This document shows positions 1,795 to 47,298 of a stretch of DNA of 64,000 nt, piece after piece; within the stretch, counting starts at the first letter, position 1; each line of letters begins with the position of its first letter. The position numbers and the translations under genes were made by a program. The stretch is from the NCBI GenBank assembly GCA_036245805.1, contig BTRK01000003.1:10788001-10852000 (forward strand), read 5' to 3'. This DNA is from Pristionchus mayeri. Its lineage: Eukaryota > Nematoda > Chromadorea > Rhabditida > Neodiplogasteridae. The notes beneath the pieces were generated by a model that saw only the letters and a program-made list of their open reading frames with translations, did not search any database and had not been told where the DNA came from.

Positions 1795-4025
1795 TTAATG
1801 GCAAATCGTTGAACTTTTTAAATTTTCGAAAAAACAACAGGATTTCGGTGTTTCCAACGTTGGAACTCCCGGGAAAGAGATTAAAAGACCTGAAATAAAT
1901 ATCCTTGGAGTATAATTGCATTGAGAATGATTCTGAAATAAAAAAAAGAAAGTATTCAACCGTATGGGGAATAGCAACAAATTATTACATTTTCCATATT
2001 CATGTATTGGGGTGTCCGGAAAGTTCGTATAATGCTTCGGAAAAAATTCAGTTCGCGATCAAATGCAGTGATTGCGCAATCTGTTTGTCAACAATGTATT
2101 GCATCATTCAGACGTTGAGTAGTGAGAGGATTTAATCACTCTCCTAGTTGCTACATTGATTCTTGTGATGGACTCCCATCTCTACCTCCGAGCAGTTTTA
2201 CTTCATTACTACCGTCTTGGCCGATCCGTGAAGGAGGCCCACTCTGCCCTGGCCCAGTCGGAAGGAGCTGACGCCCCCTCCATACCCTTCTGCTATAAGT
2301 GGTTCTCCCGCTTCAAGAATGGGGAGTTTGGTCTCGATGATCAACCCCGCTCTGGACGCCCTCCCTCCCTCGATCAGCCTCTCGTTCTCCGCACACTGAA
2401 GCACAAGCCCATGGCCAGTGTGCGTGAGTTGAAGAAGGATACTGGTACTCCCAGATCAACGGTGTCCGATATCCTCCATCGATCTGGGAAGAAGCCGAAA
2501 CTCCCACAAGTGGTTCCCCATGACCTCTCCCCCGAACAGCTGAAAAATCGTGTTCAAGTCTGTCGGGAATTACTCCATCGTAAATCCAATCTTCGATGGG
2601 TCAATTCCATCATCGCTACAGATGAGAAGTGGATCACGTACGATAACCCTGTGAGGAGACTGCAATGGGTGGATGCAGATGAGAAGCCCACGCCCGTCCC
2701 GAAGAAGGAAGAGCACGGAAAGAAGGAACTCTTCTGCTTCTTCTTCTCAGTGCTCGGTCCCATCTACTGGGAGATCCTCGCCCCTGGCACCAGCCTCAAT
2801 GCCGACCTCTTCTCTGAGCAACTGGAAGATGTCACGATCAGAGTCCCTCCCAGACTCCTGAACCAGGGCAAAATTCTTCTTCTGATGGAAAATGCTCGCC
2901 CACATCGAGCGAAGATGACCCAGAAGAAAATGGACGAGCTGAAGATCGAGAGGATTCCCCATCCACCGTATTCCCCGGATCTCTCCCCATGCGACTACCA
3001 CTGCTTCCGCTCTCTCTCTGACTTCTGCAAAGGAAAGAAGTTCAAGAATCGAGATGAAGTTGTGAGAGCTTTCGTGAACTGGGCGGTCTCGAAGAAACCC
3101 GCATTCTGGAAGAGAGGAATCGAGACCCTGCCCAATCGCTGGAGGGAGGTAGTGAGAAAGAAGGGGGCATACATTGGTCACTGAGAATTGTAAAGCATTG
3201 AATAAAAAATAAAAACAAAAAATTATACGAACTTTCCGGACACCCCAATAATTTGATTTATACACAACCAAAGTACTAGTACACCCTATTCCAACGTTCC
3301 TCCAGTGTTCGAACAACAAGGCGTAATTTGCTCTTTTCAAAGCTACGTAAGTGGGAAGGGTATATTTTTAGCTGTGCTTGCTCACTTTAGCCCAGCTACA
3401 GCTATATTTATGGAGTGGAGTGGGCGGCAAAATGAATTAAATGGGCGAGAATACAAAGAAAACGAGAGAAAGTGGGAAAACAAACCTCATAGATGTGGTT
3501 GCGCATGCAGGCCTCGAATGCAAAGCAGTTTGCGCATCCTACAAATATTGTATGTTGTAATACACTCAGTAAATTCGATGTTATCTTCGCCCGAGGAAAC
3601 TCTCAGCACAGTGACGGTATACACCGAAAGTCATTTAGCATTATATCAATCTCTTAGGAAAGGTATGTTTCACCAATATCGTAAATTCTGCTGATTGCTT
3701 CTAGTAGTCAATCCCTCACAAGCGTATCACGCATACAAACACAAAACAACTATCAAGATAGGTCTCGTCGTTTTTCAATTCGATTTCCGAACATAGAATA
3801 GGGACGGCTTCGTAAGAAATTGAAACACGAAGGCGAGCGCAAAATGTTCGGTACAAATTACCTTCTCTGCACTGGATGTCGGGCGAGTTGGTGCGCAGAT
3901 GCTGCAAAGATGATGGTTTTGATATATTTTCCTTGTACTCTCAAAAAACTCACCACTCTGGCTTCCAACGATACAACGAGGACGAGCGCGATGAGACTAA
4001 CCGCTATCAGGACTGGAGACTTCAT
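1795..4025 (-). CDS. small secreted Cys-containing protein, four exons, spans mariner 1
   Basis: Predicted exons on the minus strand are 3954-4025, 3862-3901, 3486-3538 and 1795-1932, with matching phases (0, 1, 0). The start gives a classical signal peptide (MKSPVLIAVSLIALVLVVS...). The mature part has cysteines in the pattern QCREGCANC, FEACM, SQCNY, SCC and IC. Total length is about 100 residues, which is usual for nematode secreted peptides. I do not recognise the family. Intron 3 is about 1.55 kb because mariner 1 (2,007-3,248) sits in it. Exons 1-3 are duplicated in the right arm at 45,281-45,820, but exon 4 exists only here because the palindrome boundary falls inside the mariner. Exons 1-3 are well supported by signal peptide and phase; exon 4 rests on one TATTTCAG acceptor and a short ORF and is less certain. 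Confidence 0.55.
2007..3248 (+). mobile_element. mariner transposon, copy 1
   Basis: A 1,242-bp element bounded by perfect 27-bp terminal inverted repeats beginning ttggggtgtccggaaagttc (2007-2033 and 3222-3248) and flanked by TA (2005-2006 and 3249-3250), the target duplication of Tc1/mariner elements. It contains one transposase gene in the same orientation. It lies in an intron of the minus-strand secreted gene. The left palindrome boundary lies inside it, between 2,604 and 2,695, as shown by comparison with copies 2 and 3. Confidence 0.95.
2168..3184 (+). CDS. mariner transposase, full frame but catalytic Asp replaced by Glu
   Basis: Cut-and-paste transposase of the mariner family, 338 residues from the ATG at 2168, close to the usual 330-350. 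The N-terminal helix-turn-helix half ends at the linker QPRSGRP. The catalytic half shows TDEKWITY (Asp at about residue 152), WVDADEKPTP, YSPDLSPCDYH (Asp at about 276) and a normal mariner C-terminus. Spacing between the second and third acidic residues is 34, the DD34D signature. The second residue, however, is Glu (MENARPH) at about residue 241 where mariners and copy 3 have Asp (MDNARPH). Copies 2 and 3 lack one base near this gene's 2261-2264, so this is the only copy with an open frame. I infer that it is probably catalytically dead although its ORF is intact. Confidence 0.9.
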   Translation: MDSHLYLRAVLLHYYRLGRSVKEAHSALAQSEGADAPSIPFCYKWFSRFKNGEFGLDDQPRSGRPPSLDQPLVLRTLKHKPMASVRELKKDTGTPRSTVSDILHRSGKKPKLPQVVPHDLSPEQLKNRVQVCRELLHRKSNLRWVNSIIATDEKWITYDNPVRRLQWVDADEKPTPVPKKEEHGKKELFCFFFSVLGPIYWEILAPGTSLNADLFSEQLEDVTIRVPPRLLNQGKILLLMENARPHRAKMTQKKMDELKIERIPHPPYSPDLSPCDYHCFRSLSDFCKGKKFKNRDEVVRAFVNWAVSKKPAFWKRGIETLPNRWREVVRKKGAYIGH

Positions 4026-6741
4026 TGGGATCAGAAATTTTGAAATGATAGTTACATATGGATTTGATAATGATATCACTGGTCGAGGGAGCAGCTAGAT
4101 ATGAAAGAGCTGTGAAACACTCCTGGTATGACTCAGACTGAAATGCTCTTCTCACTTTACAGAGCCATTTTAGTTCTCAACAGAGGGGAAAACGCACAGA
4201 CTAACATTGGTCGGGACGAAATCGGAAGACAAATTTAGAAACATGGGGAGCATTTTGACGTCATCTCTGAATGTCACGAAAAGGTTGCGTCATTACAAGA
4301 GATTGCTTTGGAATTCTGGCTTGACTATTGTTCCTTCCACTTTCGAGTGGAGAAGTGCAGAGAGTGTTCATAGTGACATCAGCGTTTAGGAAAAGCAGAT
4401 GGTACAACAATTTTAAAACTTCTAAATAGTGCCACGAAATACAGCGCTCGACAGATTCCGAGTGTACCGTATTTTGAAAAAGTTTTCTTAGAAGTAGAAA
4501 TCGCGGAGTTCGAAAATGCCGCTCAATTTTTCGATGCATCTTTCAAACACAAGTGCTCTGAATTATGCGTCACTTGACTGTCAACGATGAGAAAGCATTG
4601 ATTATGAAGAGTCATAGCTAGTATGCCATTCATAGTCTGCAGTAAAGAATTGGCTATCTCTTATACTAAGCCAAATTTGTAGTCGCAACAATGTAGTTGA
4701 CTAATTGAAAAAAACAACTGCACAATTGTAAGAAAGGAGAGAGAGGGGGATCGTGATGAGGGGGGGAGGGGGGGGGGTTTGGCTAGACCAAAATTCGAAT
4801 TGGCTTTGAACTTATCTTCTTGCCATTGATCCCTAAGTAATTTACAAGCAAAAGTCTAGACCAACGAACTCAGACATCCACCCTTATAGCTAAAGCCATG
4901 AACATAGGGTTTGCTACATTGCAGTGAAACAACGGAATAATTGCAAGACAATAGGAAGAGAGTCACCAATCTTTTGAGCCGCCCTTGCAAGGACAGATGG
5001 TCTCAAAATGACGGTCTCAAAATGAGTTGGGCGTGCATCAAGAAACCGTCTCTTCGTTCTGCACGCTCCCTCGCCTTAGCTAGGGAAAAGAGTGACCGGA
5101 ATTAGGGAAATCATAGCGAAACCCTCTCCAATGACGAGGAAGGAGGAGTCTGAACAATGGTCTGACGCTCTTCATTAGCCCACTCTATCCTAGGTTAGAG
5201 AACGCGAGAGAGCAGGGAAATTGGAGAGAGTCAGACAAGCACAAAATGACGAAAGAGGAGAAAGAGATGAAGAGCCATCTTCCTCCTCTTGAGCCTACCC
5301 AGATTAGGCGATGAAAAATGAGTGGGAATACTGAAGGACATGGAGCATTGATGCATTTCCCCTCTAGTGGACTCTCGAAAATGAGGGTGGGAAGGGACAA
5401 TATCAGCCAATAATTTAACAAAATACGACTATTTTTAGAGTTCTACAGTTGTATTTATATTCAAAATCAGCAGTAAACATATGCTACACGACCAATGCTT
5501 ACACAACTTCGACGCGGAGCACACCGACGAGAAATACGCGCAATTAATTCGAAATGTTTCTAATTACGCTCTAATATCGCCTTTAGAAGCCTCATTTTCT
5601 CCAATGAGAAGAAAACACAATACACATCTGAAGTGACAATGCTCTTAGTTAGACCAGAAAATGGCGAGACCAATGGGAAAAATGAGCAAGAAATACTAGG
5701 ACTATCAGAATGAGCAATAACAACATTCCCGAACTGCCCCAGGGTATATTTCGTCTGGGAAAGTGCGAAAATGTGGGAAAGAACAGCGAAATAGCAATTT
5801 CAGATCGTTTACTACCAGAACGCGATTCCCAAACGCTTTTGTACGTAGCAAATATAGCCCCGGGGCATATTTCAGTCTGGAAAAGGTACATGCCCCCGGG
5901 GCCGATTAAGTTCCAGCGCGAGGGAAAGGGCGAGCAAAAGAGCAATTGAAGCGCAGCGCTTTTCGATACTTTGCTCTTTCGCGAGACCAAAGAAGGCTTC
6001 TCACAAATTGACTCTCTTCATTCTGCATGCTCTCTCCCCTGTCTGAGCGGTGTTAGAGGGCGCATAATGGAGAGAGTAATGCCAAACTATCTCTTCCCAC
6101 GATGAATTTGACTCAGTGTGATGAAATCTCGCCCATTAGTCAACGAGAAGGGATGAGGGCGCGACACATTTCCCTATTCGAAATTGCGCTTGACAGATGC
6201 TCTGCGAGATAGCAAAGGGCGCTTCCTCGTTCTTTGTTTAGCTACTGCATAATTAATGAGTTGGAGAGCAAAGGCTCGACGGAAAGGAACAAAAGAGCAA
6301 AAGGATCGTGCCAAGGAACGCTTTAGGGATTAGAACTACGAATTGTGTAGCACTGGAGCATCTCAATTCGTAAAAAAAAACTGAATAATAATGGAATAAT
6401 CGGGATGGTAATGAATATTAATGTGTAGTAGCGCTTCCCCTGTAATATCTGGCCCCCTTCTTCTACGCTAGATCGTGCCTTCATGTGCAAATTGAGCACA
6501 AAACGAGAATTAAACAAAGTTCGAGGTAATGCTTTGAACATACAAGGGGAATATTACCAGAAAGTGTTCGACGAAAGACTTCTCTTGGAAAAGGCTAATT
6601 GCAATGCCCAAGTTCGCTGCAGATCTCGTAATTGGTGGTGATATTTGTATGGACAATGAGTTAACATTTGATGATTGTTTACCGAAATGATTTATCATGA
6701 GAGCATATATGCGGTCCTTGGGATGTAAATGCATGGGTTTA
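4026..6741. other. no gene supported; AG/CT-rich intergenic DNA
   Basis: The ORFs here are unremarkable and lack splice-phase support. The region holds many GAGAGA, GAGCAAA and CTCTC runs, a short CCCCGGGG-containing stretch near 5,855-5,905, and the G-run described separately. It is the 3' neighbour of the gene at 6,742-7,293 and lies upstream of the secreted gene that starts at 4,025. Confidence 0.5.
4757..4782 (+). other. G-run, possible G-quadruplex
   Basis: Two runs of 7 and 10 G separated by one A. The mirror tract in the right arm (about 44,526-44,548, as C on the plus strand) has runs of 11 and 7, so this homopolymer is one of the positions where the arms differ. Structure formation is inferred from composition only. 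Confidence 0.35.
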
Positions 6742-7293
6742 TCACTCCTGTTCGGTAACCACGCATGACTTGATAGGATAAGCATATAGCTTGTCACGAG
6801 TCTCCATATCCACCCATCCCTGCTTCGCGACGCACTGGAACTTACGGTATGAGGTTGAAGGGAAGAGGGGAGGACGAATGATCAAATCTGGAAAATAGTA
6901 CTTGATCTTAAAAGTTTGCACTCACGCATTAGTTAAAAAATGGAGATTTCAATATCCTGCTAGTATATAGCACAATTTCACCTTCTTTGCATATAATTTC
7001 GGCCAGGCATCCAGCGATAATGCTACCACTGCAAGAGTAGGTCACCACAGCACTGTTGACTTGAAGTTCCTCGCACTGAAAGAGCTCATATTTCTCACTG
7101 AATGTTCAGTTGAAATGGGAAAACTTGACGCCTGCTATGTCACTGAGAAAACGGATACATGGCGACAATATTGATAACTTTCCGAACCTCGGAGATAAAC
7201 TCAATGAACACTACTTCTTACAATGTTCTGATCGAACGGTGCTGCACTGACTGCTGCTGCAGCTGCTGCAAGGATGACCACGACCAGCATCAT
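6742..7293 (-). CDS. small secreted Cys-rich protein, three exons (left copy)
   Basis: Mirror of the right-arm gene at 42,008-42,559. Exons are 7222-7293, 6982-7093 and 6742-6887. The product of about 109 residues starts with an Ala-rich signal peptide (MMLVVVILAAAAAAVSA). The mature part carries seven cysteines in a spaced pattern: FQCEEL, YSCSG, AGC, IICKE, FQCVAKQGW and KSCVV. This recalls nematode secreted C6-type domains, but I cannot assign it firmly. A 3' splice site (TTTTCGCTGCAG) abuts the ATG, which suggests trans-splicing of a leader. The second acceptor must be read as CAGTGAG|AAATATG, because the upstream CAG would create an in-frame TGA. No difference from the right-arm copy was seen in the coding part. 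Confidence 0.65.
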
Positions 7294-7500
7294 CTGCAGC
7301 GAAAATTAGCAATCTTAACATGAAAATACGATGGTAGATCAATGTCGGACGGAATTAACGGGTGAACACTACTAGCATCTTAATAAGTCAAGCGAAAAGA
7401 CGGACAATGGATCAGACACGCTGGTGACAGACTAGACGCTGAGATGGTTTTGAATGAAAGGGGACTCGATGTCGGATACCTTCCTTCCTGATATATTTCG

Positions 7501-7509
7501 CTTATATAG
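7501..7509 (-). promoter_or_regulatory. TATA box
   Basis: The minus strand reads ctatataag, about 210 bp upstream of the ATG of the secreted gene at 6,742-7,293. The distance fits a TATA promoter followed by an outron that is removed by leader trans-splicing at the acceptor beside the ATG. Its mirror is at 41,792-41,800. Confidence 0.4.
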
Positions 7510-7861
7510 GCGCTATTCGCTATTGAATCCAGCTTGCCTTTCTGGAGAAGAATAGAACCAATCCGGAACCAAAGGCAATTAAGCAATTGATATGGCACAA
7601 TTCTCTGACTCTCTCGATATCGAGTGTTCTTTCGCTCACTTTGACTCTCTGACTCTTTCTCTATTTCACACACTCTCGCGCTCATTTTAGAATGTGAGAG
7701 AGTGTGTGGGTTGGAGATACCGATACCACTGCCGATGAAAGGGGAAGCAGTACGTATAGATTAAATTGGATTGATCCTCTAACTGCAAGTGCAAGTGAGC
7801 TGTTGTTTGGCTCTCTACAGATGCCACGGTATATTATTTTCTCTAGATAGTTGTTCCATCA

Positions 7862-8005
7862 ATGCAGCAAGGCGTAGGTTTGGCTAGACGACGCAAGGAT
7901 AGCGTGTTCGATGAAGACAGACTAAACCAGAAGATTTCAGAAGGGATAATCGGCAATATCAAAGTGATCGAAGCACCGAATCTCATAAATCACGTCGCCA
8001 CCTCT
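7862..8005 (+). other. possible orphan exon or gene fragment
   Basis: An open stretch with protein-like composition (LARRRKDSVFDEDRLNQK, then EGIIGNIKVIEAPNL) that ends at a possible donor (AAA|GTTTGT). No partner exons with matching phase were found and the family is not recognised. It is mirrored at 41,296-41,439. It may be chance. Confidence 0.2.
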
Positions 8006-8152
8006 ATTAAAGTTTGTCAAATATTTTTAGTCTTGATTCATTTCACGCAACCATTGTGAAATATTAATTATACTCTTAACATATATTTGTGAAACATAAC
8101 CGAGCCAAGGCGATAGGAGTGAGCTTAAAAAAGATATGTCTTATTAAATGTT

Positions 8153-9055
8153 GGCTCTGTGCGAATAACGTGGTACGTGCCGTTTATTTGTGGTACGTAC
8201 TACGTACCACATGGTACGTAACTTTTATTATGGTACGTACCGATCCCCCTGTGGTACGTAACTTTTTATGATGGTACGTAACTTGTATTGTTTAATCGGT
8301 CAAATATATGACCTATATGTGCTGTATTGGCCCAACCCTTTGTGGTAATGGATATAGAGTTAGCAGAAACAGCGGTATCCCCTAATATAAACTTTCATGG
8401 CGCCTGTGCCTATGACCATCCTTCGCAGTTGCAGATCTTGGTCCTCGTCTTGTTCATCCGATCTTGGGGGATTTTTTTGAGTGGGATATCTCGGTGTTGG
8501 TTGCACGGGCCTTCTCGTGGTGGTCGTAGTCTGTCTTCTAGTCGTCTTGGTAGTTGCCTACTGATTGTAGTAGCTAAGGAAGATGAAACTGGTTTCACAG
8601 TACTGTGAGGTACCGTCGACAGATTGAAGAAAAAAATGCGATTGAAGAATAACACATATATGATGAAAAAACCATCTTTGACTGTTTGGATAGCCCGAAG
8701 ACGCTCATGCCGACGGGATTCTCCCAATGCGAGAAGAAGCAGGACTACGGCGTAGAAGTGCATCACTTTCAGGGTACCTAGTCAGAGGACAGGTGCTCCA
8801 GTGAAAGAGAAGTGGGAGGAGCAGAGGAGAAGGAATGAAGGGCGGGGACAAGGCGGAAGCTTGGATTCGCCTAGAGGAGGGAACAATTATGTAATTATGC
8901 GCATATTGAGCATATTTGGTCAGCTTTGCAAAAAAAGTTACGTACCATAATAAAAAGTTACGTACCATGATAAATGATACGTACCACATGGTACGTAATA
9001 CATACCACGTTAGTCGCATAGGACAAAACACGTACCACGTTATTCGCACAGAGCC
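8153..9055. mobile_element. TACGTACC-rich inverted-repeat element (left copy)
   Basis: The outer ends are inverted copies of ggctctgtgcgaataacgtg. Inside each end lie four to seven spaced copies of GGTACGTA / TACGTACC, often followed by ACTTTTTATTATGG or its complement, making inverted terminal regions of about 130 bp. A 9-bp string ttaaatgtt occurs directly outside the left end (8144-8152) and 7 bp outside the right end (9063-9071), a candidate target duplication. The interior carries a small Thr-rich ORF on the minus strand. No transposase is seen, so it would be non-autonomous. Mirror copy at 40,246-41,148. Confidence 0.6.
8360..8764 (-). pseudogene. left copy of a small secreted Thr/Pro-rich gene, with TAG
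   Basis: Mirror of the right-arm ORF at 40,538-40,941. Exon 1 encodes a signal-peptide-like start (MHFYAVVLLLLALGESRR). Exon 2 is a Thr/Arg/Pro-rich low-complexity tail ending in acidic and basic residues. In this arm the codon that is TTG on the right (40,741-40,743) is TAG (8,558-8,560), which would end exon 2 after about 14 codons. Two further SNPs sit at the predicted splice sites. The exon phases do not join cleanly in either arm, so the gene model itself is weak. Confidence 0.35.
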
Positions 9056-9421
9056 GAAATGTTTAAATGTTAGGGTCATTCCAGCGTTTATGATAAAGTC
9101 GAAAGGGCTAACGAGGAGAATTATTCTTTCGTTGGAAAGTTCGGAGTCGGTTTACAAAAACGCTCCTTTTTGAGATTATGAATCCTGTGATAAAATAGGA
9201 CGATGCGACTGAGAGTGCCCAATTGACAAACTTGATTAAAACACGCTATACTGAACTCTACTGAACATACATTATGCTTCACAATTGTAATATCAGGCGA
9301 GATCATGATTGCAGGTGATTCGTTCTACACTTTTGGGTGCTATTAAAATAATATATAAAAACATTACTCGTTCATAATTAACTTATGAATTGGTCAAATA
9401 ACACCGATACAGAATTATGTG

Positions 9422-10517
9422 CAGGGTGTGGAGAAAGTACTTTGACATGGATTTAACCATGTATCTTCCTTCAATGGCATCGACTTTTTTTGAAACAGTG
9501 CACATTATTTATCAGAGACAGTAGGAAGATAACAACATGATATTAATCGATTTGACCTCCATTGGCCTTGACGACAGCCTTGAGACGAGAAGGGACTGAG
9601 TCGATGACGGATCGCAGGTAGTGGGTATCGATTTTCTCCCATGCATTCTGGAGGGACTTCTTGAGGGATTTCTTGAGGCTATCCAAACTCTGGTGGCGAA
9701 CAGAGCAAGCATTCTTCTCCAGTACCGACCACACACTGAAGTCAAGGGGAGAGAGATCCGGACTGTTCGAGGGCCATTCCTCGGATGGAATGAAGTCGAG
9801 CAAACCCAAACCATCACCGATTGCGGGTGGGAAACACGTGAGACAGTTCTTCCTCGGGCATTGGCTTGCTGACTTGACTTGGCAATGATCCTCGTGTTCT
9901 GGCTGTTGAAAAACTGCTACACCGTGAACACCTTCTCATCCGAGTAGAGAGTCGTGAGATGTTCGCCATGTGCGATCCTCCCTAGGAGCTTCTTGCATCT
10001 CTTGAGCCTCTTCTCCTTGTGAATGCCGGTCAGACCATGGCTCTTACGCATCTTGTAAGGGTGGGACGTGAGACCAGAGTGAACTATCTTGCGCACCGAA
10101 TACTCGTCGATTCCGAGATCACGCGCCATCTTTCTCATAGATCGGATGGGATCACGTGCAACTCGCATCTGCACGATTTTCTTGTTCTTCCGAGTGACAG
10201 CAGTGTGAGGTCTGCCCACTCTAGTACGGTCCTTAGTCGTGCCCAGCACCTTGAAGCGGCAGATGGTATTGTGAACGGTCTGACGGGAAACTCGGCGTTT
10301 CTTCGAAATTCCTTCGGGGGCTCGCCGAGGGTCCAAAGGTCAATAATGGATTTCCGGTACTGGTGGGGTCGAGTCATTACTAGGAGATACTATTTGAAGT
10401 GCGCATTGAACACCTCGAGTGGTATACTAAAACGTGTTATAACATGCATTAACAGGTTGGTAGGACTGATGAAATATTCGAGTTCAAACTTTGTCTAAGT
10501 ACTTTCTCCGCACCCTG
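9422..10517 (-). mobile_element. defective maT-like (Tc1/mariner superfamily) transposon, left copy
   Basis: Terminal inverted repeats cagggtgyggagaaagtact bound about 1.1 kb, with TA next to the right end. The minus strand encodes two transposase pieces. An N-terminal part at 9,917-10,336 has an HTH region, VGRPHTA and the first catalytic motif LYSDEKVFTV. A C-terminal part at 9,543-9,809 contains PSNSPDLSPLDFSVWSVLE, the region of the third acidic residue in maT/DD37D transposases. Between them there is a TAG, and the frame then runs from VMVW directly into LLDFIPSEEW. The segment with the middle catalytic Asp is therefore deleted. Mirror copy at 38,784-39,879. Confidence 0.8.
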
Positions 10518-10843
10518 TAAAGCATTTATTATGGAAAGTTACGCGGCTGAACTGGTTATGGTGTCTATCTCAAAAGGCGCCATACATTAGAAGAGGAAAA
10601 CAACATCGCGGTCGAGTACCTTCCAATACAGATAGTGTGTTATGTGGTACGTGTTGTTATTGTTTTTTTAAAAAATAAGTAGACTGATTTTGAAATTAGT
10701 CGATCACTGATGATATATGTGTCAAGAATAATAGTGAGAATTCTGATCGCAGGCGTATCTGTACGTATCTAGCACACATTCCATTTATTCTGGTATAAAA
10801 AGATGTTTGGAAAGGCAGTACTGCATTCAGACCAGTGCAAACA

Positions 10844-11802
10844 TCAAACGTCCTCAATGGGATTATTCAGATACATCTGCTGAGGTTTCGGAATTAGGCA
10901 TGATAACAGAGACAGAGGGCCATGATTTTCTCCGCGTTCGTCGATCCAAATCGTGCCGTACATGGCGTTGTGTATGTACCCATCTTTGTCGACGATAATC
11001 GAATAATCTGCCCGCACAGGCAAAGCATGAGCGATTACCTTAATGTATTCTGCACGGAAAATGCATCTGATCAAATAATGGCGAAATAAGACAACGAACC
11101 TCCGATGAATGCAATAATCGATATGTACACAGTTCCCGAGTGATTCGGCTCAAAGGCTAGCGCTGATTTCGATTTACCTGGAGTGAAGCCCACCGAGCTC
11201 ACCTTGTGGTAAACCTCCGATGTTGAAAGAAGTATCGAACATTGTCGCATGATGTCTATAATAATATGTTGAGTGTTTCAGTTAGAAAATAATACAACTT
11301 TTCATTCGGTCATTCACTGAGAATTTCGATTGCGTCCTGAAAGTAACAGCTATCAATTGTTCAAAGATCGAAATTGTCGCCCATGCAATGTGTATCTGGG
11401 CACTCGGGCAGATGATAACTTTCCGGATGATAACCATAGATAGCATCATAATTTAGTAACGTCGTAAAAATATTGGCGTTTTTGAACACCCTTCGACAAT
11501 CTTTCACAGGACGTTATGATTCGGAAAATAATCCGGCCTAGTGCCCAGATATAACCCACTCATTGTGGCTCTAGCCTGCTGGAAATCCATCGTGCAGTTA
11601 GTGACGTGCTGGAATATGAGTAACTTAAATACATGAAAATTAACTTTTCAAATCACTTTGTATGGATGTAAAATGAATTTGAAATGCCCACCACTCGATC
11701 GCCATCGACTATGCAATATACGGGCTCTTCATAGGCGTTTGAAATCCAAGTTCGTTTCCCACCTCCGCGGCAGCAGCATACACAGCAACATCCGCAACAC
11801 AT
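10844..11802 (-). CDS. four-exon gene with Cys-rich MCCGCCCVCCC start (left copy)
   Basis: Mirror of 37,498-38,456. Exons are 11657-11802, 11299-11336, 11100-11255 and 10844-11049. All exon junctions agree in phase, giving a product of about 148 residues. It begins MCCGCCCVCCCRGGGKRTW, a Cys cluster typical of palmitoylated membrane anchors. Two segments of similar flavour follow: WISNAYEEPVYCIVDGDRVV early, and ADYSIIVDKDGYIHNAMYG in exon 4. In between lies SGTVYISIIAFIG. There is no signal peptide, so a cytosolic protein attached to a membrane by acylation is inferred. I do not recognise the family by name. Strong acceptors (TTTTCCGTGCAG, TTACTTTCAG) and consistent phases make this one of the better-supported models in the window. 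Confidence 0.75.
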
Positions 11803-12223
11803 GGGGTAGTGACAATGGTAACTACAGTCAGAGGACCGAAGTCAAGAAATTACAAATATAAGCCTCTCTGAGGAGTGGACACAGATAATCACTATCAATG
11901 GCGGTAAAATTGGAGAACTGAGATGGTACCATGTTAACATGCCACTATTTCCTGGAATATTTTTTTAAAAATTGTCTTTCAGGCAATGACGATCTGGGTA
12001 CGATCTGGGTACGAATATTGAGTGGATGAAACTCAACCGAACATTTAAAAACAATTTGAAAAAGTAAACTTCACCAAACAAAAACCTCATAATGTTGATT
12101 GCCGGTCCGTTCATTCAGGTGCGTATATTCCGATTGCTGCAGGGAAACCAACTGCGAGACTCCGGCTCTGACCATGCCCATCACTGTACGTTGTAGAATT
12201 TAGGTTATAGTCATAGTTGCTCA

Positions 12224-12319
12224 GCACTGGCGGCGGCGTCTTTCAGACCCCATCACCCCTATATGTACTTTGTTGCCTGTACATGTGACCATGGGGTCGC
12301 CACCGGCGTGGGCAACTAT
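12224..12319. repeat. short imperfect inverted repeat, CGGCGGCG / GGGCAACTAT family
   Basis: Stems atagttgctcagcactggcg and cgccaccggcgtgggcaact form an imperfect hairpin of about 96 bp. A related sequence (cgccgccagtgttgggcaac) occurs at about 58,806 and a related block at 56,825-56,850, so this is a dispersed family. Mirror at 36,981-37,076. Confidence 0.5.
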
Positions 12320-12743
12320 CACGCGTGACAGTAAGAATTGAATAGATTTCTGAACAGCCTGATACATTTATTCACCCTTGCATCTTTGAGCGGTTTCTGA
12401 TAGTTCCAATGATCCCTCAAAATAAACTATCAAGTTTTGTTCCATATATGGATATATCTCCTCGACAACTTATCATCCAATTTTGGGACCTTACAATTAT
12501 TGGACAACTTTTGTCCCATTCAATACGATGTTGACTAAATATTTATTCAACGCCATGGTTGCATCTTCTCTCACTATCCGAAGTTGCCGAATCATCAGTC
12601 TGAAGACTGTCCAACTACTCATATCTCGTTTTCGAGAGTACCCACCCCCAACATTACATTAACATTAGCATGTTGAACACGTGTTGTTCGGTTATGTTTC
12701 TCGACTCGAACCGACTAGCAACCCCAGACGGCTTCAACCTTAT

Positions 12744-13342
12744 TTAAAACGCGTTCTCTGTAAGAACGCAGTGGAATGGTCAGATGATGGCAAAACTCCG
12801 TCACAATGATCCCCTGGGGCTCAAACTTTCAGTATATGACCCATAGGGACAAATAAACTTTCCGCCGGAAGTTGGACCCCAAATTCCAATTTTAACCTAC
12901 AATACATCATTCGAAAGAGCGTGAGAAGTTATGCGAGAATCTGCATTTTCGCCAAAAAAGATCTACTATGACGTGTTTTACATCGTTTCAAATCATATTT
13001 TTCGCTATTTTCCTTAAATATTGTGGTTGCTTCCCTTCTCAAACACACCAGCACCCTCCAGTTTCGATATATTTTTCTCCAAATGTAATGCACAATCAAA
13101 TTATGTTCTTGAAAGTCCACTTTTCGAATGCCAAAATACTTTTCGAATGATGTATAGCATGAGGCCTAGATCCAAAATTTGAAATTATCGATTTTTGTAG
13201 GTCAAAATTGGAATTTGGGGTCCAACTTCCGGCGGAAAGTTTATTTGTCCCTATGGGTCATATACTGAAAGTTTGAGCCCCGGGCGATCATTTTGTCGGA
13301 GTTGTGCCATGCCAACATCACTCTTATAAAGAACGCGTTTTA
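12744..13342. mobile_element. foldback element (about 600 bp) with TTAAAACGCGTTCT ends, left copy
   Basis: The ends are ttaaaacgcgttct and its reverse complement. Further in, arms of about 120 bp are inverted copies (the stretch with ttccgccggaagttggaccc at 12,858-12,880 and its complement at 13,220-13,245), separated by a unique core of about 300 bp. Both ends begin with TTAA, which could be a target-site duplication. No coding capacity. Mirror at 35,958-36,556. Confidence 0.65.
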
Positions 13343-14170
13343 ATAGAAGCACCACATAATGCACGAAAAACGTCTTCCAAAAAATGCTTCTTTCCTCCCC
13401 TCCCGCATGAACGTATGTAAATTTTCCGCATGAAGGTCCGCATCAACGTATGTGAATTTCATCGGTTGAGTTTCAAAGAAAAGTTTAAGCTGTGAGATTC
13501 CGACAGTTCGCAATGAAGTTGTGGTGCACAGCAAGTCAACTCAGAAAAAAAGATCATTTGCGTGGAAGAACAAATTCAATTAACTGCGGACAATGGGAGA
13601 TTCGGAACAATGGAACGAGACAATGGAAGTCCAGGGTTTTCGGAACGTTAGCTCATGCCACAGCTCTCTGAGACGGAAATTGACCAATCGGCTCCATCAG
13701 ATTGTGCGAAAGGGGTTTAGGCAACTTTTTAGGCAACAATTTTTTTTCTTGGGTAGATCTTATAAATTCCAACAACATATCAAAAAATTAGATGGGTTAC
13801 ATTTTTAGTTTTCGAATAAAACATCCATGAAATTTTGCATAAACAATAAAAGATACAATTTGCATAAACTAAAATCAAGGATCGATTCAGAGCACCAAGT
13901 TTAGACTAACACTAAGTTTTCATAAGATTTGGGTGTGTTTTCACCGAGTAGTGCTCAAATATGTATTCGTATGAACAAAATTATGATGCATGTAATTATG
14001 CTAATTAATTGTTTCAGGTCATCTCGTTTGCACAAATCGAAGTAGGACCCCTTTGGCTATCAGATTATGTGAAAAACCCAAAGTGCATGTTTTTGATGTA
14101 CCCTTTTATTGGAAAAATCTGCGGTTCTTATGCGAATGCACTGATATTAGTACAATACATCTCTCATTAC

Positions 14171-14481
14171 TAGAGTTCTCTTGTTGGAAAATGTTCCAAT
14201 TTTCCAATAGCGAGAACAAAGGAGTCTCTCACTCATCTCATTTTCCAATAACATCTATTGTATGGTGGAATTTTCCAATAACTTATTGGAAACTTATTGG
14301 AAAATAGTCGATTGAGTTTCAACGATCAATAACCCCTTTTCTTCGTGCTTTCTTATTGGGAAATCGTTTTCCAATAATTTTCCAATAATACGTCATTTCC
14401 AATAAGCGGCAACCTCATTTTGCGGTGAGGGGGAGGGGGGTAATTTTCCAATAACGATTTTTTTCCAACAAGAGAACTCTA
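14171..14481. mobile_element. hAT-like MITE rich in TTCCAATAA, left copy
   Basis: A 311-bp element with terminal inverted repeats tagagttctcttgttggaaa and a perfect 8-bp target duplication ctcattac (14163-14170 and 14482-14489), the length expected for hAT transposition. The interior holds about ten copies of TTCCAATA or TATTGGAA in both orientations and a G-rich tract. No ORF. Mirror at 34,819-35,129 with its duplication intact. Confidence 0.85.
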
Positions 14482-14718
14482 CTCATTACAGTCATCCTCA
14501 TTTTTCGACGCGTCTCACGCTTCGGAAGCGCTCGCTCGTTTCCAAGCGGTCATCGGGGGCGGAAATTCGAGTGTGCAAGTGGAGCATAAGAATGTGAGCA
14601 CGGGCGAAAATCTTCTTAAAGGAGCACTAAAGACAAAGTAGCCATATCGATAGAAAAAAGTGTACGCGAGCTTCCACCCTCCAAAGATCATAGCGCGAGC
14701 TAGGAGATATATGTCCAT

Positions 14719-14789
14719 CGGTAGCTTAGCTCAGTGGTAGAGCAGCTGCCATATGATCGGAAGGTTGTGGGTTCGGTTCCCGTCTTTTG
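14719..14789 (+). other. tRNA-like sequence (degenerate tRNA or SINE head), left copy
   Basis: The sequence tagcttagctcagtggtaga matches a tRNA A box and D arm, and gtgggttcggttcccgtc resembles a B box and T arm. The D and T stems can form with wobbles. The anticodon stem has one mismatch around an eight-base loop and the acceptor stem does not pair. I infer a tRNA-derived repeat or dead tRNA rather than a working gene. Mirror at 34,511-34,581 (minus strand). Confidence 0.5.
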
Positions 14790-15119
14790 ACAAATCTTCC
14801 ATCGATTTGAATTCGCGCACTTCCCTGGGCTTTCAAGCGTCCATAACACTCAGCCAACAAATCATAACTATGTTGAGAGTAGACATATCAATGTAATTTG
14901 TTGGAGCCTTTAGACGTTAAGAAGAGCTAGGTCATGGTTATGAATGCGCCGAAAGTTGAACGTTGCCGTTAGTCCTCATTTGTAAATATGTTCCAAACAA
15001 CGTATGGGTTCCTACAAAAGGTCGAATGAGTTTCACAATAATAAAATCCTGTTGATATTTGTTCGGTGGTTAGTGGATTCAACTTGGTTAGTGAAAAAAA
15101 AACAATTGAATAACACATG

Positions 15120-15330
15120 TATCACGAGCAAAATCAGCCTCGTCCGGAACAATTTTTTTTCAAAGTTGTTCGATTTCGATCATATTATAGTAGGAAGGTA
15201 CCCTGGATTCAAGAATTCGATTAAACTAGGTAAACTCCGAGAGCCGGGTTTTAGGTATTTTCCGGTTTTCAATGCGGCCATGCCGTATCACAGCTCCCAG
15301 ACTAGCTACAGTGATGTGATCAGGCTTAAA
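15120..15330 (+). pseudogene. possible decayed astacin catalytic exons, left copy
   Basis: One frame reads MYHEQNQPRPEQFF, resembling the HEQ.R.DRD part of the astacin zinc site. After a run of eight T, a second frame reads FDFDHIIVGRYPGFKNSIK and later AAMPYHSSQTSYS, resembling the region that in astacins leads to the Met-turn (SVMHY). The first half of the HExxH zinc motif is not found. The position, upstream of the EGF exons and in the same orientation, fits a decayed catalytic domain. The match is weak and could be chance. The same frameshift is present in the right arm (about 33,970-34,180). Confidence 0.25.
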
Positions 15331-15813
15331 ATACGCGGAAAAATATGAGAAACAACTTTCATGTTACAAATAAGATTGCAATATGCACTCTAAAAAAGTT
15401 GTAATCGCAAAACTGCATTTGAGGGTGAATATAAATTTCTTACGCAATTACAATAGCGACTAAAGCGGAATTTTATAGCGGATAATTGAAGAGGAAGTAG
15501 TCATGTCTCTTAGAAAAAAATAAAATTAAACTTTAGTTGAGGTTGTAGTCTCCATTTTTCTCGCCTATCGTGGCACACTGCTAACTGTCAATAGTTAAAC
15601 CCCTCAGATACATATCTCTAATTCCTAAGTGATAACCAGCAAATGCTTGAAAAGCCTCCATGAGCGTTATCCAGGGGATGTCAACATGGGAATCGAGACC
15701 ACAAGTTGGTTTCAGAGGTCAAAATGATGTGTGGAAGCCGGTCAAAAACACACTGCATTATTTACTCAGCCAAACAACGTTTCCAATATTTTTTTTCAAA
15801 ATCAGTTTTCAGA

Positions 15814-21800: not shown

Positions 21801-22095
21801 TATAAATTTGTTGCAATATTATCAAATATTATAACACGGTTTTAGTTTCTGCTGCACAAAGGATGAAGGCTACTCGTTCATCTCCAAGAGTAATGTTATC
21901 GGGTCAGTTCTTTGTTTTTTGTTGTTGTTTTCTTTCGAAACGTGTGCTTTCAGACAAGTGTTAGTGCATAACATATGCATATGCATGATATAAGTAATCA
22001 GTCGTGTGTACAATCACTCACTCATTTTTAGGTACAAGGCCTACGCCTCGCCGGGCATGCCTTTCGACGCTGCCGTTAAATACACTATTGTCTAA
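15814..22095 (+). CDS. astacin-family gene part: end of protease domain, four EGF cassettes, CUB domain (left)
   Basis: Exons run in order. 15814-15886 holds SNRQPVLVANDPDYINTMG, the end of an astacin domain. Then comes a three-exon cassette in four copies: RKLTFNDYKMVNSLYEC (16044-16101, 17545-17602, 19045-19102, 20545-20602), the first half of an EGF module, CPKQLPCRNGGYTSPKNC (16182-16246, 17683-17747, 19183-19247, 20683-20747), and its second half, CVCNDFYSGTYCGIP (16399-16465, 17900-17966, 19400-19466, 20911-20977). Last come CUB exons 21362-21657, 21846-21902 and 22032-22095. Each cassette enters and leaves in phase 0, so all copies can be spliced in frame. The architecture is that of secreted nematode NAS metalloproteases. 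No intact HExxH motif was found upstream, so the gene may be a protease-dead or truncated derivative. The donor of the first exon (ATA|GTTCAT) is my choice to keep phase 0. Confidence 0.7.
16011..20511 (+). repeat. three 1.5-kb tandem repeats carrying EGF exons (left array)
   Basis: Units are 16011-17511 (1,501 bp), 17512-19011 (1,500) and 19012-20511 (1,500), followed by a fourth partial unit that stays similar to about 21,150 and then diverges. Identity among full units is above 99 percent. Diagnostic variants are not shared simply by neighbours. Units 1 and 3 have GCAAATGAAAT and ATGGTC; units 2 and 4 have GCAAATTAAAT and ATGATC. Unit 3 alone has CATATTCGG. Units 2 and 3 share an eight-T run and GTCATTC, where unit 1 has nine T and GTCACTC. 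The non-exonic part has no recognised gene. Confidence 0.95.
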
Positions 22096-33486: not shown

Positions 33487-34510
33487 TCTGAAAACTGATT
33501 TTGAAAAAAAATATTGGAAACGTTGTTTGGCTGAGTAAATAATGCAGTGTGTTTTTGACCGGCTTCCACACATCATTTTGACCTCTGAAACCAACTTGTG
33601 GTCTCGATTCCCATGTTGACATCCCCTGGATAACGCTCATGGAGGCTTTTCAAGCATTTGCTGGTTATCACTTAGGAATTAGAGATATGTATCTGAGGGG
33701 TTTAACTATTGACAGTTAGCAGTGTGCCACGATAGGCGAGAAAAATGGAGACTACAACCTCAACTAAAGTTTAATTTTATTTTTTTCTAAGAGACATGAC
33801 TACTTCCTCTTCAATTATCCGCTATAAAATTCCGCTTTAGTCGCTATTGTAATTGCGTAAGAAATTTATATTCACCCTCAAATGCAGTTTTGCGATTACA
33901 ACTTTTTTAGAGTGCATATTGCAATCTTATTTGTAACATGAAAGTTGTTTCTCATATTTTTCCGCGTATTTTAAGCCTGATCACATCACTGTAGCTAGTC
34001 TGGGAGCTGTGATACGGCATGGCCGCATTGAAAACCGGAAAATACCTAAAACCCGGCTCTCGGAGTTTACCTAGTTTAATCGAATTCTTGAATCCAGGGT
34101 ACCTTCCTACTATAATATGATCGAAATCGAACAACTTTGAAAAAAAATTGTTCCGGACGAGGCTGATTTTGCTCGTGATACATGTGTTATTCAATTGTTT
34201 TTTTTTCACTAACCAAGTTGAATCCACTAACCACCGAACAAATATCAACAGGATTTTATTATTGTGAAACTCATTCGACCTTTTGTAGGAACCCATACGT
34301 TGTTTGGAACATATTTACAAATGAGGACTAACGGCAACGTTCAACTTTCGGCGCATTCATAACCATGACCTAGCTCTTCTTAACGTCTAAAGGCTCCAAC
34401 AAATTACATTGATATGTCTACTCTCAACATAGTTATGATTTGTTGGCTGAGTGTTATGGACGCTTGAAAGCCCAGGGAAGTGCGCGAATTCAAATCGATG
34501 GAAGATTTGT
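33487..34510. other. no supported gene; mirror of 14,790-15,813
   Basis: Contains the mirror of the possible decayed astacin catalytic exons (about 33,970-34,180). Otherwise nothing recognised. Confidence 0.4.
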
Positions 34511-34581
34511 CAAAAGACGGGAACCGAACCCACAACCTTCCGATCATATGGCAGCTGCTCTACCACTGAGCTAAGCTACCG
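34511..34581 (-). other. tRNA-like sequence, right copy
   Basis: Reverse complement of 14,719-14,789 with the same A-box and B-box motifs and the same failure of the acceptor stem to pair. Confidence 0.5.
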
Positions 34582-34818
34582 ATGGACATATATCTCCTAG
34601 CTCGCGCTATGATCTTTGGAGGGTGGAAGCTCGCGTACACTTTTTTCTATCGATATGGCTACTTTGTCTTTAGTGCTCCTTTAAGAAGATTTTCGCCCGT
34701 GCTCACATTCTTATGCTCCACTTGCACACTCGAATTTCCGCCCCCGATGACTGCTTGGAAACGAGCGAGCGCTTCCGAAGCGTGAGACGCGTCGAAAAAT
34801 GAGGATGACTGTAATGAG

Positions 34819-35129
34819 TAGAGTTCTCTTGTTGGAAAAAAATCGTTATTGGAAAATTACCCCCCTCCCCCTCACCGCAAAATGAGGTTGCCGCTTATTG
34901 GAAATGACGTATTATTGGAAAATTATTGGAAAACGATTTCCCAATAAGAAAGCACGAAGAAAAGGGGTTATTGATCGTTGAAACTCAATCGACTATTTTC
35001 CAATAAGTTTCCAATAAGTTATTGGAAAATTCCACCATACAATAGATGTTATTGGAAAATGAGATGAGTGAGAGACTCCTTTGTTCTCGCTATTGGAAAA
35101 TTGGAACATTTTCCAACAAGAGAACTCTA
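34819..35129. mobile_element. hAT-like MITE rich in TTCCAATAA, right copy
   Basis: Mirror of 14,171-14,481 with the 8-bp duplication gtaatgag at 34,811-34,818 and 35,130-35,137. Its presence with identical flanks in both arms means the insertion predates the palindrome. Confidence 0.85.
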
Positions 35130-38456: not shown

Positions 38457-38783
38457 TGTTTGCACTGGTCTGAATGCAGTACTGCCTTTCCAAACATCTT
38501 TTTATAGCATGAATAAATGGAATGTGTGCTAGATACGTACAGATACGCCTGCGATCAGAATTCTCACTATTATTCTTGACACATATATCATCAGTGATCG
38601 ACTAATTTCAAAATCAGTCTACTTATTTTTAAAAAAAACAATAACAACACGTACCACATAACACACTATCTGTATTGGAAGGTACTCGACCGCGATGTTG
38701 TTTTCCTCTTCTAATGTATGGCGCCTTTTGAGATAGACACCATAACCAGTTCAGCCGCGTAACTTTCCATAATAAATGCTTTA

Positions 38784-39879
38784 CAGGGTGCGGAGAAAGT
38801 ACTTAGACAAAGTTTGAACTCGAATATTTCATCAGTCCTACCAACCTGTTAATGCATGTTATAACACGTTTTAGTATACCACTCGAGGTGTTCAATGCGC
38901 ACTTCAAATAGTATCTCCTAGTAATGACTCGACCCCACCAGTACCGGAAATCCATTATTGACCTTTGGACCCTCGGCGAGCCCCCGAAGGAATTTCGAAG
39001 AAACGCCGAGTTTCCCGTCAGACCGTTCACAATACCATCTGCCGCTTCAAGGTGCTGGGCACGACTAAGGACCGTACTAGAGTGGGCAGACCTCACACTG
39101 CTGTCACTCGGAAGAACAAGAAAATCGTGCAGATGCGAGTTGCACGTGATCCCATCCGATCTATGAGAAAGATGGCGCGTGATCTCGGAATCGACGAGTA
39201 TTCGGTGCGCAAGATAGTTCACTCTGGTCTCACGTCCCACCCTTACAAGATGCGTAAGAGCCATGGTCTGACCGGCATTCACAAGGAGAAGAGGCTCAAG
39301 AGATGCAAGAAGCTCCTAGGGAGGATCGCACATGGCGAACATCTCACGACTCTCTACTCGGATGAGAAGGTGTTCACGGTGTAGCAGTTTTTCAACAGCC
39401 AGAACACGAGGATCATTGCCAAGTCAAGTCAGCAAGCCAATGCCCGAGGAAGAACTGTCTCACGTGTTTCCCACCCGCAATCGGTGATGGTTTGGGTTTG
39501 CTCGACTTCATTCCATCCGAGGAATGGCCCTCGAACAGTCCGGATCTCTCTCCCCTTGACTTCAGTGTGTGGTCGGTACTGGAGAAGAATGCTTGCTCTG
39601 TTCGCCACCAGAGTTTGGATAGCCTCAAGAAATCCCTCAAGAAGTCCCTCCAGAATGCATGGGAGAAAATCGATACCCACTACCTGCGATCCGTCATCGA
39701 CTCAGTCCCTTCTCGTCTCAAGGCTGTCGTCAAGGCCAATGGAGGTCAAATCGATTAATATCATGTTGTTATCTTCCTACTGTCTCTGATAAATAATGTG
39801 CACTGTTTCAAAAAAAGTCGATGCCATTGAAGGAAGATACATGGTTAAATCCATGTCAAAGTACTTTCTCCGCACCCTG
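38784..39879 (+). mobile_element. defective maT-like transposon, right copy
   Basis: Mirror of 9,422-10,517. Transposase remnants lie at 38,965-39,384 (HTH region to SDEKVFTV, then TAG) and 39,492-39,758 (PSNSPDLSPLDF region). The middle catalytic segment is deleted at about 39,485-39,495. Confidence 0.8.
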
Positions 39880-40245
39880 CACATAATTCTGTATCGGTGT
39901 TATTTGACCAATTCATAAGTTAATTATGAACGAGTAATGTTTTTATATATTATTTTAATAGCACCCAAAAGTGTAGAACGAATCACCTGCAATCATGATC
40001 TCGCCTGATATTACAATTGTGAAGCATAATGTATGTTCAGTAGAGTTCAGTATAGCGTGTTTTAATCAAGTTTGTCAATTGGGCACTCTCAGTCGCATCG
40101 TCCTATTTTATCACAGGATTCATAATCTCAAAAAGGAGCGTTTTTGTAAACCGACTCCGAACTTTCCAACGAAAGAATAATTCTCCTCGTTAGCCCTTTC
40201 GACTTTATCATAAACGCTGGAATGACCCTAACATTTAAACATTTC

Positions 40246-41791: not shown

Positions 41792-41800
41792 CTATATAAG
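41792..41800 (+). promoter_or_regulatory. TATA box
   Basis: The sequence ctatataag lies about 210 bp upstream of the ATG at 42,008, with an outron and an acceptor (TTCGCTGCAG) in between. Mirror of 7,501-7,509. Confidence 0.4.
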
Positions 41801-42007: not shown

Positions 42008-42559
42008 ATGATGCTGGTCGTGGTCATCCTTGCAGCAGCTGCAGCAGCAGTCAGTGCAGCACCGTTCGATCAGAACATTGTAAGAAGTAGTGTTCATTGA
42101 GTTTATCTCCGAGGTTCGGAAAGTTATCAATATTGTCGCCATGTATCCGTTTTCTCAGTGACATAGCAGGCGTCAAGTTTTCCCATTTCAACTGAACATT
42201 CAGTGAGAAATATGAGCTCTTTCAGTGCGAGGAACTTCAAGTCAACAGTGCTGTGGTGACCTACTCTTGCAGTGGTAGCATTATCGCTGGATGCCTGGCC
42301 GAAATTATATGCAAAGAAGGTGAAATTGTGCTATATACTAGCAGGATATTGAAATCTCCATTTTTTAACTAATGCGTGAGTGCAAACTTTTAAGATCAAG
42401 TACTATTTTCCAGATTTGATCATTCGTCCTCCCCTCTTCCCTTCAACCTCATACCGTAAGTTCCAGTGCGTCGCGAAGCAGGGATGGGTGGATATGGAGA
42501 CTCGTGACAAGCTATATGCTTATCCTATCAAGTCATGCGTGGTTACCGAACAGGAGTGA
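42008..42559 (+). CDS. small secreted Cys-rich protein, three exons (right copy)
   Basis: Exons are 42008-42079, 42208-42319 and 42414-42559, phases 0 and 1. Signal peptide MMLVVVILAAAAAAVSA, then a mature domain of about 90 residues with seven cysteines (FQCEEL, YSCSG, AGC, IICKE, FQCVAKQGW, KSCVV). The pattern of paired Cys with a GW before the last Cys recalls nematode C6-type secreted domains, but the match is by eye only. The acceptor at 41,997-42,007 directly precedes the ATG, so the mRNA is probably trans-spliced. A TATA box lies at 41,792. The neighbours on both sides are intergenic. Confidence 0.65.
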
Positions 42560-45820: not shown

Positions 45821-46057
45821 GTTTGTTTTCCCACTTTCTCTCGTTTTCTTTGTATTCTCGCCCATTTAATTCATTTTGCCGCCCACTCCACTCCATAAAT
45901 ATAGCTGTAGCTGGGCTAAAGTGAGCAAGCACAGCTAAAAATATACCCTTCCCACTTACGTAGCTTTGAAAAGAGCAAATTACGCCTTGTTGTTCGAACA
46001 CTGGAGGAACGTTGGAATAGGGTGTACTAGTACTTTGGTTGTGTATAAATCAAATTA

Positions 46058-47298
46058 TTGGGGTGTCCGGAAAGTTCGTATAATTTTTTGTTTTTATTTT
46101 TTATTCAATGCTTTACAATTCTCAGTGACCAATGTATGCCCCCTTCTTTCTCACTACCTCCCTCCAGCGATTGGGCAGGGTCTCGATTCCTCTCTTCCAG
46201 AATGCGGGTTTCTTCGAGACCGCCCAGTTCACGAAAGCTCTCACAACTTCATCTCGATTCTTGAACTTCTTTCCTTTGCAGAAGTCAGAGAGAGAGCGGA
46301 AGCAGTGGTAGTCGCATGGGGAGAGATCCGGGGAATACGGTGGATGGGGAATCCTCTCGATCTTCAGCTCGTCCATTTTCTTCTGGGTCATCTTCGCTCG
46401 ATGTGGGCGAGCATTTTCCATCAGAAGAAGAATTTTGCCCTGGTTCAGGAGTCTGGGAGGGACTCTGATCGTGACATCTTCCAGTTGCTCAGAGAAGAGG
46501 TCGGCATTGAGGCTGGTGCCAGGGGCGAGGATCTCCCAGTAGATGGGACCGAGCACTGAGAAGAAGAAGCAGAAGAGTTCCTTCTTTCCGTGCTCTTCCT
46601 TCTTCGGGACGGGCGTGGGCTTCTCATCTGCATCCACCCATTGCAGTCTCCTCGCAGGGTTATCGTACGTGATCCACTTCTCATCTGTAGCGATGATGGA
46701 ATGGACCCATCGAAGATTGGATCTACGATGGAGTAATTCCCGACAGACTTGAACACGATTTTTCAGCTGTTCGGGGGAGAGGTCATGGGGAATCACTTGT
46801 GGGAGTTTCGGCTTCTTCCCAGAGCGATGGAGGATATCGGACACCGTTGATCTGGCAGTACCAGTATCCTTCTTCAACTCACGCACACTGGCCATGGGCT
46901 TGCGCTTCAGTGTGCGGAGAACGAGAGGCTGATCGAGGGAGGGAGGGCGTCCAGAGCGGGGTTGATCATCGAGACCAAACTCCCCTTTCTTGAAGCGGGA
47001 GAACCACTTATAGCAGAAGGGTATGAAGGGGGCGTCAGCTCCTCCGACTGGGCCAGGGCAGAGTGGGCCTCCTTCACGGATCGGCCAAGACGGTAGTAAT
47101 GAAGTAAAACTGCTCGGAGGTAGAGATGGGAGTCCATCACAAGAATCAATGTAGCAACTAGGAGACTGATTAAATCCTCTCACTACTCAACGTCAAAATG
47201 ATGCAATACATTGTTGACAAACAGATTGCGCAATCACTGCATTTGATCGCGAACTGACTTTTTTCCGAAGCATTATACGAACTTTCCGGACACACCAA
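46058..47298 (-). mobile_element. mariner transposon, copy 2 (mosaic, at palindrome boundary)
   Basis: A 1,241-bp element flanked by TA (46056-46057 and 47299-47300). The outer terminal repeat has one change (cacaccaa for caccccaa). Sequence from 46,058 to 46,610 shares every diagnostic base with copy 1, including the Glu codon at 46,416-46,418 and SLNADLF. Sequence from 46,703 to 47,298 shares diagnostics with copy 3, including the one-base deletion near 47,043, the GTCAG near the end and the WVHSI codon. The switch lies within about 93 bp. Confidence 0.95.
46122..47137 (-). pseudogene. mariner transposase, copy 2: frameshifted and catalytic Asp to Glu
   Basis: The N-terminal frame (MDSHLYLRAVLLHYYRLG...) is lost after ALAQSE by a one-base deletion shared with copy 3. 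Downstream the frame is open to the normal C-terminus. The second catalytic residue is Glu (MENARPH), as in copy 1. A private change gives NPARRL where the other copies have NPVRRL. It combines both defects, as expected for a recombinant of the other two. Confidence 0.9.

Follow-up and report, generated by a model that had tools for sequence, protein, structure and literature searches.

A near-perfect palindrome with arms of more than 20 kb was found in the genome of the nematode Pristionchus mayeri, in a stretch of 64,000 nucleotides (C3:10788001-10852000, hereafter the window; positions without a contig are window positions), and was confirmed as real in the assembled sequence. Its left arm (2005-23874, + strand) and right arm (23991-47300, - strand) face each other across an asymmetric spacer of 116 bp (23875-23990), and we think it probable that the palindrome was produced by a recent fold-back inverted duplication, which pivoted on a transposon with long terminal inverted repeats (TIRs), TE-B, and landed in a mariner. 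An earlier note, made from the letters of this DNA, had described a giant, almost perfect palindrome, and that description held; the two most telling features, a transposon hairpin at the axis and a chimeric mariner at the outer edge, were both invisible to it.

The genome analysed comprises 290.8 Mb in 73 contigs. The published assembly, which Canu built from PacBio HiFi reads of at least 10,000 nucleotides and for which Hi-C data gave the scaffolding, is given as 290.8 Mb and six chromosomes with an N50 of 48.8 Mb, one of its three record sets having 73 records (PMC11544036). According to the same paper, which includes a coverage analysis, the species is androdioecious, hermaphrodites and males have identical genomes, and there are no sex chromosomes; CRISPR editing is established, and the words 'palindrom' and 'inverted' are both absent from the main text (PMC11544036). 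No large palindromes in Pristionchus were found among the matches listed in a literature search whose coverage leaves out most subscription journals.

All arm comparisons were made by aligning the window with itself. Positions 2005-19351 matched 47300-29947 at 99.683% identity over 17,355 aligned positions, and 20867-23874 matched 26998-23991 at 100% identity over 3,008 bp; two arms of more than 20 kb at such identity are far beyond chance. Homology between the arms reaches 2005 and 47300 and stops at both, that is, where mariners end, and the outer flanks of the two arms are unrelated to each other. The limits proposed in the earlier note (2604 and 46703) were too narrow, and adjoin a mismatch (2603/46703) that is the next-to-last one inside the mariner, the last being at 2652/46654. 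The outer mariner part (2011-2652), within the outer 650 bp, accounts for fifteen of the arm differences; the 12.75 kb between the outer mariner and a tandem array (3251-16000) hold 13 substitutions and 3 small indel events, and 20867-23874 holds none. Further differences lie inside the array, where their count varies with the pairing of units, which the long self-alignment places out of register. The earlier note had put the small differences at about ten. Arm divergence is 0.10%. The mutation rate of P. pacificus is near 2e-9 per site and generation; in the absence of conversion, this rate would place the duplication about 250,000 generations in the past.

Two large differences between the arms, both reported in the earlier note, were borne out. 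A long interspersed nuclear element (LINE; 26999-29920, + strand), with a 918-amino-acid open frame (27133-29889) matching RVT_1 and Exo_endo_phos, is present in the right arm only, is flanked by a 12-bp target-site duplication (26987-26998 and 29921-29932), and corresponds to an empty site at 20867 in the left arm; as read from this arrangement, the LINE entered the right arm after the duplication. The other difference is in the tandem array, which has a unit of 1.5 kb carrying an EGF-like exon module of an astacin-like gene, and which counts 3.4 units (5.2 kb) in the left arm (16001-21152, + strand) and 2.4 units in the right arm (26713-33299, - strand), where the last partial unit is split by the LINE. 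Relative to the left arm, the right arm accordingly carries the LINE as extra length and lacks one tandem unit. The five full array units differ at seven sites, of which the first left and first right units agree at 7/7; the second right unit is nearest to the third left unit (two sites differ), and the second left unit is without a close partner.

The axis of the palindrome coincides with the axis of TE-B (23521-24344), a long-TIR element with TTAA ends, whose TIRs (23521-23874 and 23991-24344) are 354 bp each and identical in inverted orientation, and whose flanks mirror each other for 20 kb. The 116-bp spacer consists of the interior of this central element and the innermost 30 bp of its right TIR. 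TE-B terminal repeats are dispersed in the genome (at least 81 matches, from the best 40 of 218 candidates). Ten regions with TE-B copies were fetched, of which eight held ordinary two-ended copies, the other two (L012 and L014) being part of another palindrome. In the ordinary copies, the TIRs are 90.6-96.7% alike, TTAA was present at both ends in 8/8, and a mirror match in the 300 bp beyond the ends was found in 0/8. The interior of the window copy (~23868-23973) matches the inside of longer copies at 74.6-80.0%, which identifies the window TE-B as internally deleted. As single-stranded DNA, TE-B is predicted to fold at -471.7 kcal/mol, versus a mean of -93.3 for 20 shuffles, a very stable hairpin, as any such repeat would give. 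We take its TTAA ends to be reminiscent of piggyBac-type elements. Adjoining TE-B on either side are parts of a second long-TIR element, TE-A (22933-23524, + strand, and its mirror at 24341-24932, - strand). The only TE-A relative examined (L038) has arms 94.8% alike around a 292-bp spacer, with mirror likeness persisting outside at 96.5%, whereas the TE-A parts in the window are an exact mirror. The inverted copy thus adjoins the original across a short unduplicated spacer, and inverted sequences that are common to dispersed copies, and that could predate the event, stand at the edge of that spacer.

Both outer ends of the palindrome are mariner ends at TA. The left arm ends in m1 (2005-3250, + strand; Pfam Transposase_1 and HTH_48), the right arm in m2 (46056-47300, - strand), and a third copy, m3, lies outside the palindrome (54154-55398, + strand). 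The three copies were aligned, and each variable site was assigned to the copy that is odd there. The outer part of m2 (12 m1-odd, 2 m3-odd and 3 m2-odd sites) agrees with m3, and its inner part (0 m1-odd and 10 m3-odd sites) is identical to m1, a chimeric pattern with one switch point (Fisher P 6.7e-5 on the m1-odd and m3-odd counts). The switch falls in 46611-46702 on the - strand (mirror 2604-2695), between the last m1-odd site (2603/46703) and the first inner m3-odd site (2696/46610). This switch from m3-like to m1-like implies that recombination or template switching between mariners connected the right arm with the right flank. Among the mariner relatives in the genome, the best 40 of 282 candidates are all 98-100% identical.

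The left arm is probably the original and the right arm its inverted copy, as judged from the surrounding genes. A cluster of astacin-type genes on the same strand continues to the left of the left arm; the zinc-binding motif HExxHxxGxxH was found at four places in this left flank, and in one exon nowhere in the arms or the right flank (144 kb scanned; a motif split by an intron would escape). Joined exon peptides of one left-flank gene match Pfam Astacin at 2.8e-42, which names the family of the arm gene, and the astacin query matches the annotated P. mayeri protein PMAYCL1PPCAC_10661. To the left of the window, identity is 80-91% in blocks collinear with the exons of the arm gene and 95-99% in those resembling its upstream part. 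When forward frames of at least 25 amino acids from three left-flank astacin regions were searched by tblastn, 636 hits were obtained, 442 on the left (self-hits included), 194 in the arms, and 0/636 in the 46.7 kb that follow the right arm on its right side. The cluster therefore goes on only to the left, which makes the right arm the probable copy.

This anatomy suggests that a strand with its end at TE-B or beyond, where the astacin cluster stops on the right, folded back so that the right TIR of the element annealed to the left one. Synthesis primed at the fold would then have proceeded outwards, duplicating about 21 kb of the left arm, and the TE-B interior would have remained as the 116-bp spacer. 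At the copied mariner, where the switch itself is visible, recombination or a template switch with an inverse mariner beside the present right flank may then have rejoined the chromosome and made the chimeric m2, and the sequence originally between TE-B and the right flank would have been lost or moved. Subsequently, as is seen in the sequence, the right arm gained the LINE, the arrays diverged in copy number, and point differences arose. The palindrome probably has no function of its own beyond doubling its content.

In human chromosomes, a retained spacer edged by short inverted sequences is a published mark of fold-back inverted duplication (PMC3907307), and the P. mayeri palindrome resembles the human cases in having an inverted copy beside the original, a short retained spacer, and inverted sequences at the spacer edge. 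The second junction of the human cases, to a telomere or other sequence, can be counted as a further likeness, but in P. mayeri it is homologous and lies inside a mariner. The P. mayeri palindrome also differs in being interstitial and part of a strain's assembled genome, in pivoting on the 354-bp TIR pair of a transposon, and in its spacer of 116 bp, compared with 700 bp to 70 kb in Table 1 of the human study (PMC3907307). When a yeast chromosome breaks close to inverted repeats, its repair is directed into fold-backs and break-induced replication (PMC6103520), and the pairing of such repeats within one strand is common to both cases; the yeast breaks were induced in a test system, whereas the P. 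mayeri palindrome is known from its product only.

Several points weigh against a fold-back origin. The evidence for the palindrome is the assembly sequence of one strain, RS5460, and the mariner alignment comprises three copies, with five outer m2 sites (the 2 m3-odd and 3 m2-odd ones) off the simple pattern. Pivot, mirror, chimera and later changes are seen directly, while the break, the copying and the order of events are reconstructed from them. Four arm-to-arm substitutions fall within 112 bp (8559-8670), a clump (P about 0.001) that plain ageing leaves unexplained, and a different amplification mechanism, considered below, could yield a similar end product.

The clump bears on an older palindrome held near-identical by arm-to-arm gene conversion, the other origin that the earlier note had offered beside a recent inverted duplication, and one that we regard as rather unlikely. 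Together with the absence of any difference in the innermost 2.7 kb of the arms (P about 0.08), the clump suggests uneven homogenisation, and the right array unit R2 begins like left unit L3 and ends like L1. Against this, the LINE, the array difference and the 13 substitutions are still present, and the identity of the central TIRs is already explained by copying. Conversion between the arms is thus possible, but it is neither shown nor needed, and of the earlier proposals an inverted duplication is retained, its recency being consistent with the low divergence. The analogy to sex-chromosome palindromes, drawn in the same note, was rejected. Mammalian sex-chromosome palindromes have long arms, a short spacer and very high identity. 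These traits are shared by the P. mayeri palindrome, but the sexes of P. mayeri are reported to have identical genomes, without sex chromosomes or a reported sex-linked region (PMC11544036). The main mechanistic rival to fold-back is origin-dependent inverted-repeat amplification (ODIRA), in which a strand switch at close inverted repeats gives an inverted triplication that is later eroded at repeats to an inverted duplication. The close inverted repeats that it requires are present, and secondary recombination at dispersed repeats would fit the chimeric mariner, so that both the trigger and the later resolution have counterparts in the published system; ODIRA starts from an inverted triplication (PMC10766186), whereas the P. 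mayeri locus shows two copies. No third, direct copy was found beyond the inverted copy in the 46.7 kb that adjoin it on the right, where m3 is the one near-identical arm match and the others are at most 477 bp at 73-74%. Later erosion could have removed such a copy, but the loss of one of two repeat pairs would be required, and we consider ODIRA an unlikely origin.

An assembly artefact, whether a hairpin or missed-adapter read or a head-to-head join of allelic haplotypes in which the assembly jumped at the mariner, appears very improbable. A misjoin would likewise give a chimeric repeat at the boundary, and a palindrome on C4 that is next to telomere repeats, although its contig is of chromosome size, may reflect an anomalous join. 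However, one molecule read twice would yield arms identical apart from read error, and cannot differ by a 2.9-kb insertion with its target duplication, a tandem unit and 13 substitutions, all of which were found here. The longest identical run between the arms in 2652-14548 is 3,525 bp, that across the axis is about 6.1 kb, and the left array is 5.2 kb; all of these fall short of the 10-kb minimum read, so that HiFi reads were long enough to position the arms. A head-to-head join of haplotypes was judged unlikely because the species is androdioecious, so that the haplotypes of a strain should be alike, and because the outer flanks are unrelated. There is hardly any room for a composite transposon, in which two inward-facing mariners would have carried the whole 45-kb unit into a TA site; the mariner ends at TA at both outer ends are as expected, but m2 is a chimera, the left arm continues the local same-strand astacin cluster and so was probably not imported, and 45 kb is far above the cargo usually carried by mariners. 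After these comparisons, fold-back at TE-B is retained as the preferred origin.

Other palindromes are present in the assembly. Four further mirror candidates were picked by eye from equally scoring inverted hits. In three of the four (C4:7641001-7650966, C4:6286001-6292313 and C3:37050001-37085481), the mirror stretches were identical over 1000/1000 bp, and the remaining one (C5:3.83-3.87 Mb) gave no match in the mirror test and was discarded. For the three confirmed pairs, no perfect copy was found besides the two mirror places; two of the three tested stretches open with 350-440 bp of dispersed repeat, and the C3 stretch also has a 99% copy 157 kb away. The palindrome at C4:7.65 Mb has a spacer of about 99 bp, its arms disagree at one position within their innermost 190 bp, and its centre contains neither TE-B nor any sequence of the studied neighbourhood; a TE-B pivot is therefore not general, which slightly lowers the odds of a wider role for fold-back. 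The centre of the pair at C3:37.05-37.08 Mb was not palindromic over 480 bp, so this pair has a wide spacer. The palindrome that includes TE-B copies (C4:1.863-1.871 Mb; L014, C4:1862500-1872000) has 3,840-bp arms at 100% identity, which end in TTAGGC telomere repeats inside a chromosome-size contig, and it recurs on a 15-kb contig (C73:3000-10000, L012); the structure may be either a telomere-capped fold-back end or the product of wrong scaffolding. Equal-score neighbours on the same strand, likewise read by eye, also exist (C5:41.33/41.34 Mb, C1:39.09/39.10 Mb and contig C16), so inverted pairs are not the sole recent duplications, and an artefact is possible for all of the mirror loci outside the window. 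Further candidate mirror loci were noted at C3:3.938/3.965 Mb, C1:8.323/8.333 Mb and C2:38.673/38.731 Mb.

Fold-back duplication has mostly been described from disease chromosomes, cancers and yeast tests. The window offers a probable case from an animal genome in which the two junctions are legible to the base: one is a transposon pivot, to be set against eight control copies, and the other a landing by homology inside a second transposon. We tentatively raise, as a conjecture that may well not hold, that the P. mayeri genome has been repeatedly reshaped by fold-back in the germ line, with abundant hairpin transposons serving as pivots, young mariners receiving the ends, and the outcome being many near-perfect palindromes of ~8-60 kb, one of them telomere-capped, in a selfing, holocentric animal free of sex chromosomes. 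If the other mirror loci are alike, P. mayeri would let the rate of such duplications be measured, and could show whether they feed the growth of gene families, here a protease cluster.

The earlier note had also counted at least four gene models as doubled; this was checked in part, and one truncated astacin-like gene, one fragment of a second local family and one transposase-type element were found in both arms. The astacin-like gene, which lacks recognisable catalytic exons, comprises in the left arm (14459-21936, + strand) a first exon, four EGF modules, a CUB-like exon (21377-21664) and a last exon, and its mirror (25929-34841, - strand) has three EGF modules and is interrupted by the LINE; the labels 'EGF-like' and 'CUB-like' are our own assumed readings rather than Pfam hits. 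This gene was not found among the annotated proteins, where the nearest match was that of a neighbour (72% over 49% of the query), and it is probably a decayed or non-enzymatic relative. The array at 16001-21152 shows an EGF-like exon module multiplying in tandem within an astacin-like gene whose catalytic exons can no longer be recognised. Frames of the second locally repeated family lie at 6745-7105 (- strand; mirror about 42196-42556, + strand). The element at 9422-10519 (- strand; mirror about 38780-39880) has overlapping broken frames and gave weak HTH matches only, below the Pfam cut-off; from its motifs, we presume it to be of Tc1/mariner type. A Pfam search of six frames of 3001-18000, a region that includes some of the short astacin-like exons of the arm, gave no match at E 0.01, and a tRNA scan and an Rfam scan at the gathering cut-off gave none in the whole window.

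The LINE family is very young, the best 40 of 1105 candidates being all shown as 100% identical over nearly the full query. Inverted self-matches of at least 500 bp were observed in 6/8 neighbouring 10-kb stretches. Outside the palindrome, 51119-52154 is an almost fully self-complementary element (94.7%), with at least 39 other copies (from the best 40 of 3272 candidates), 28 of them at 97-98%.

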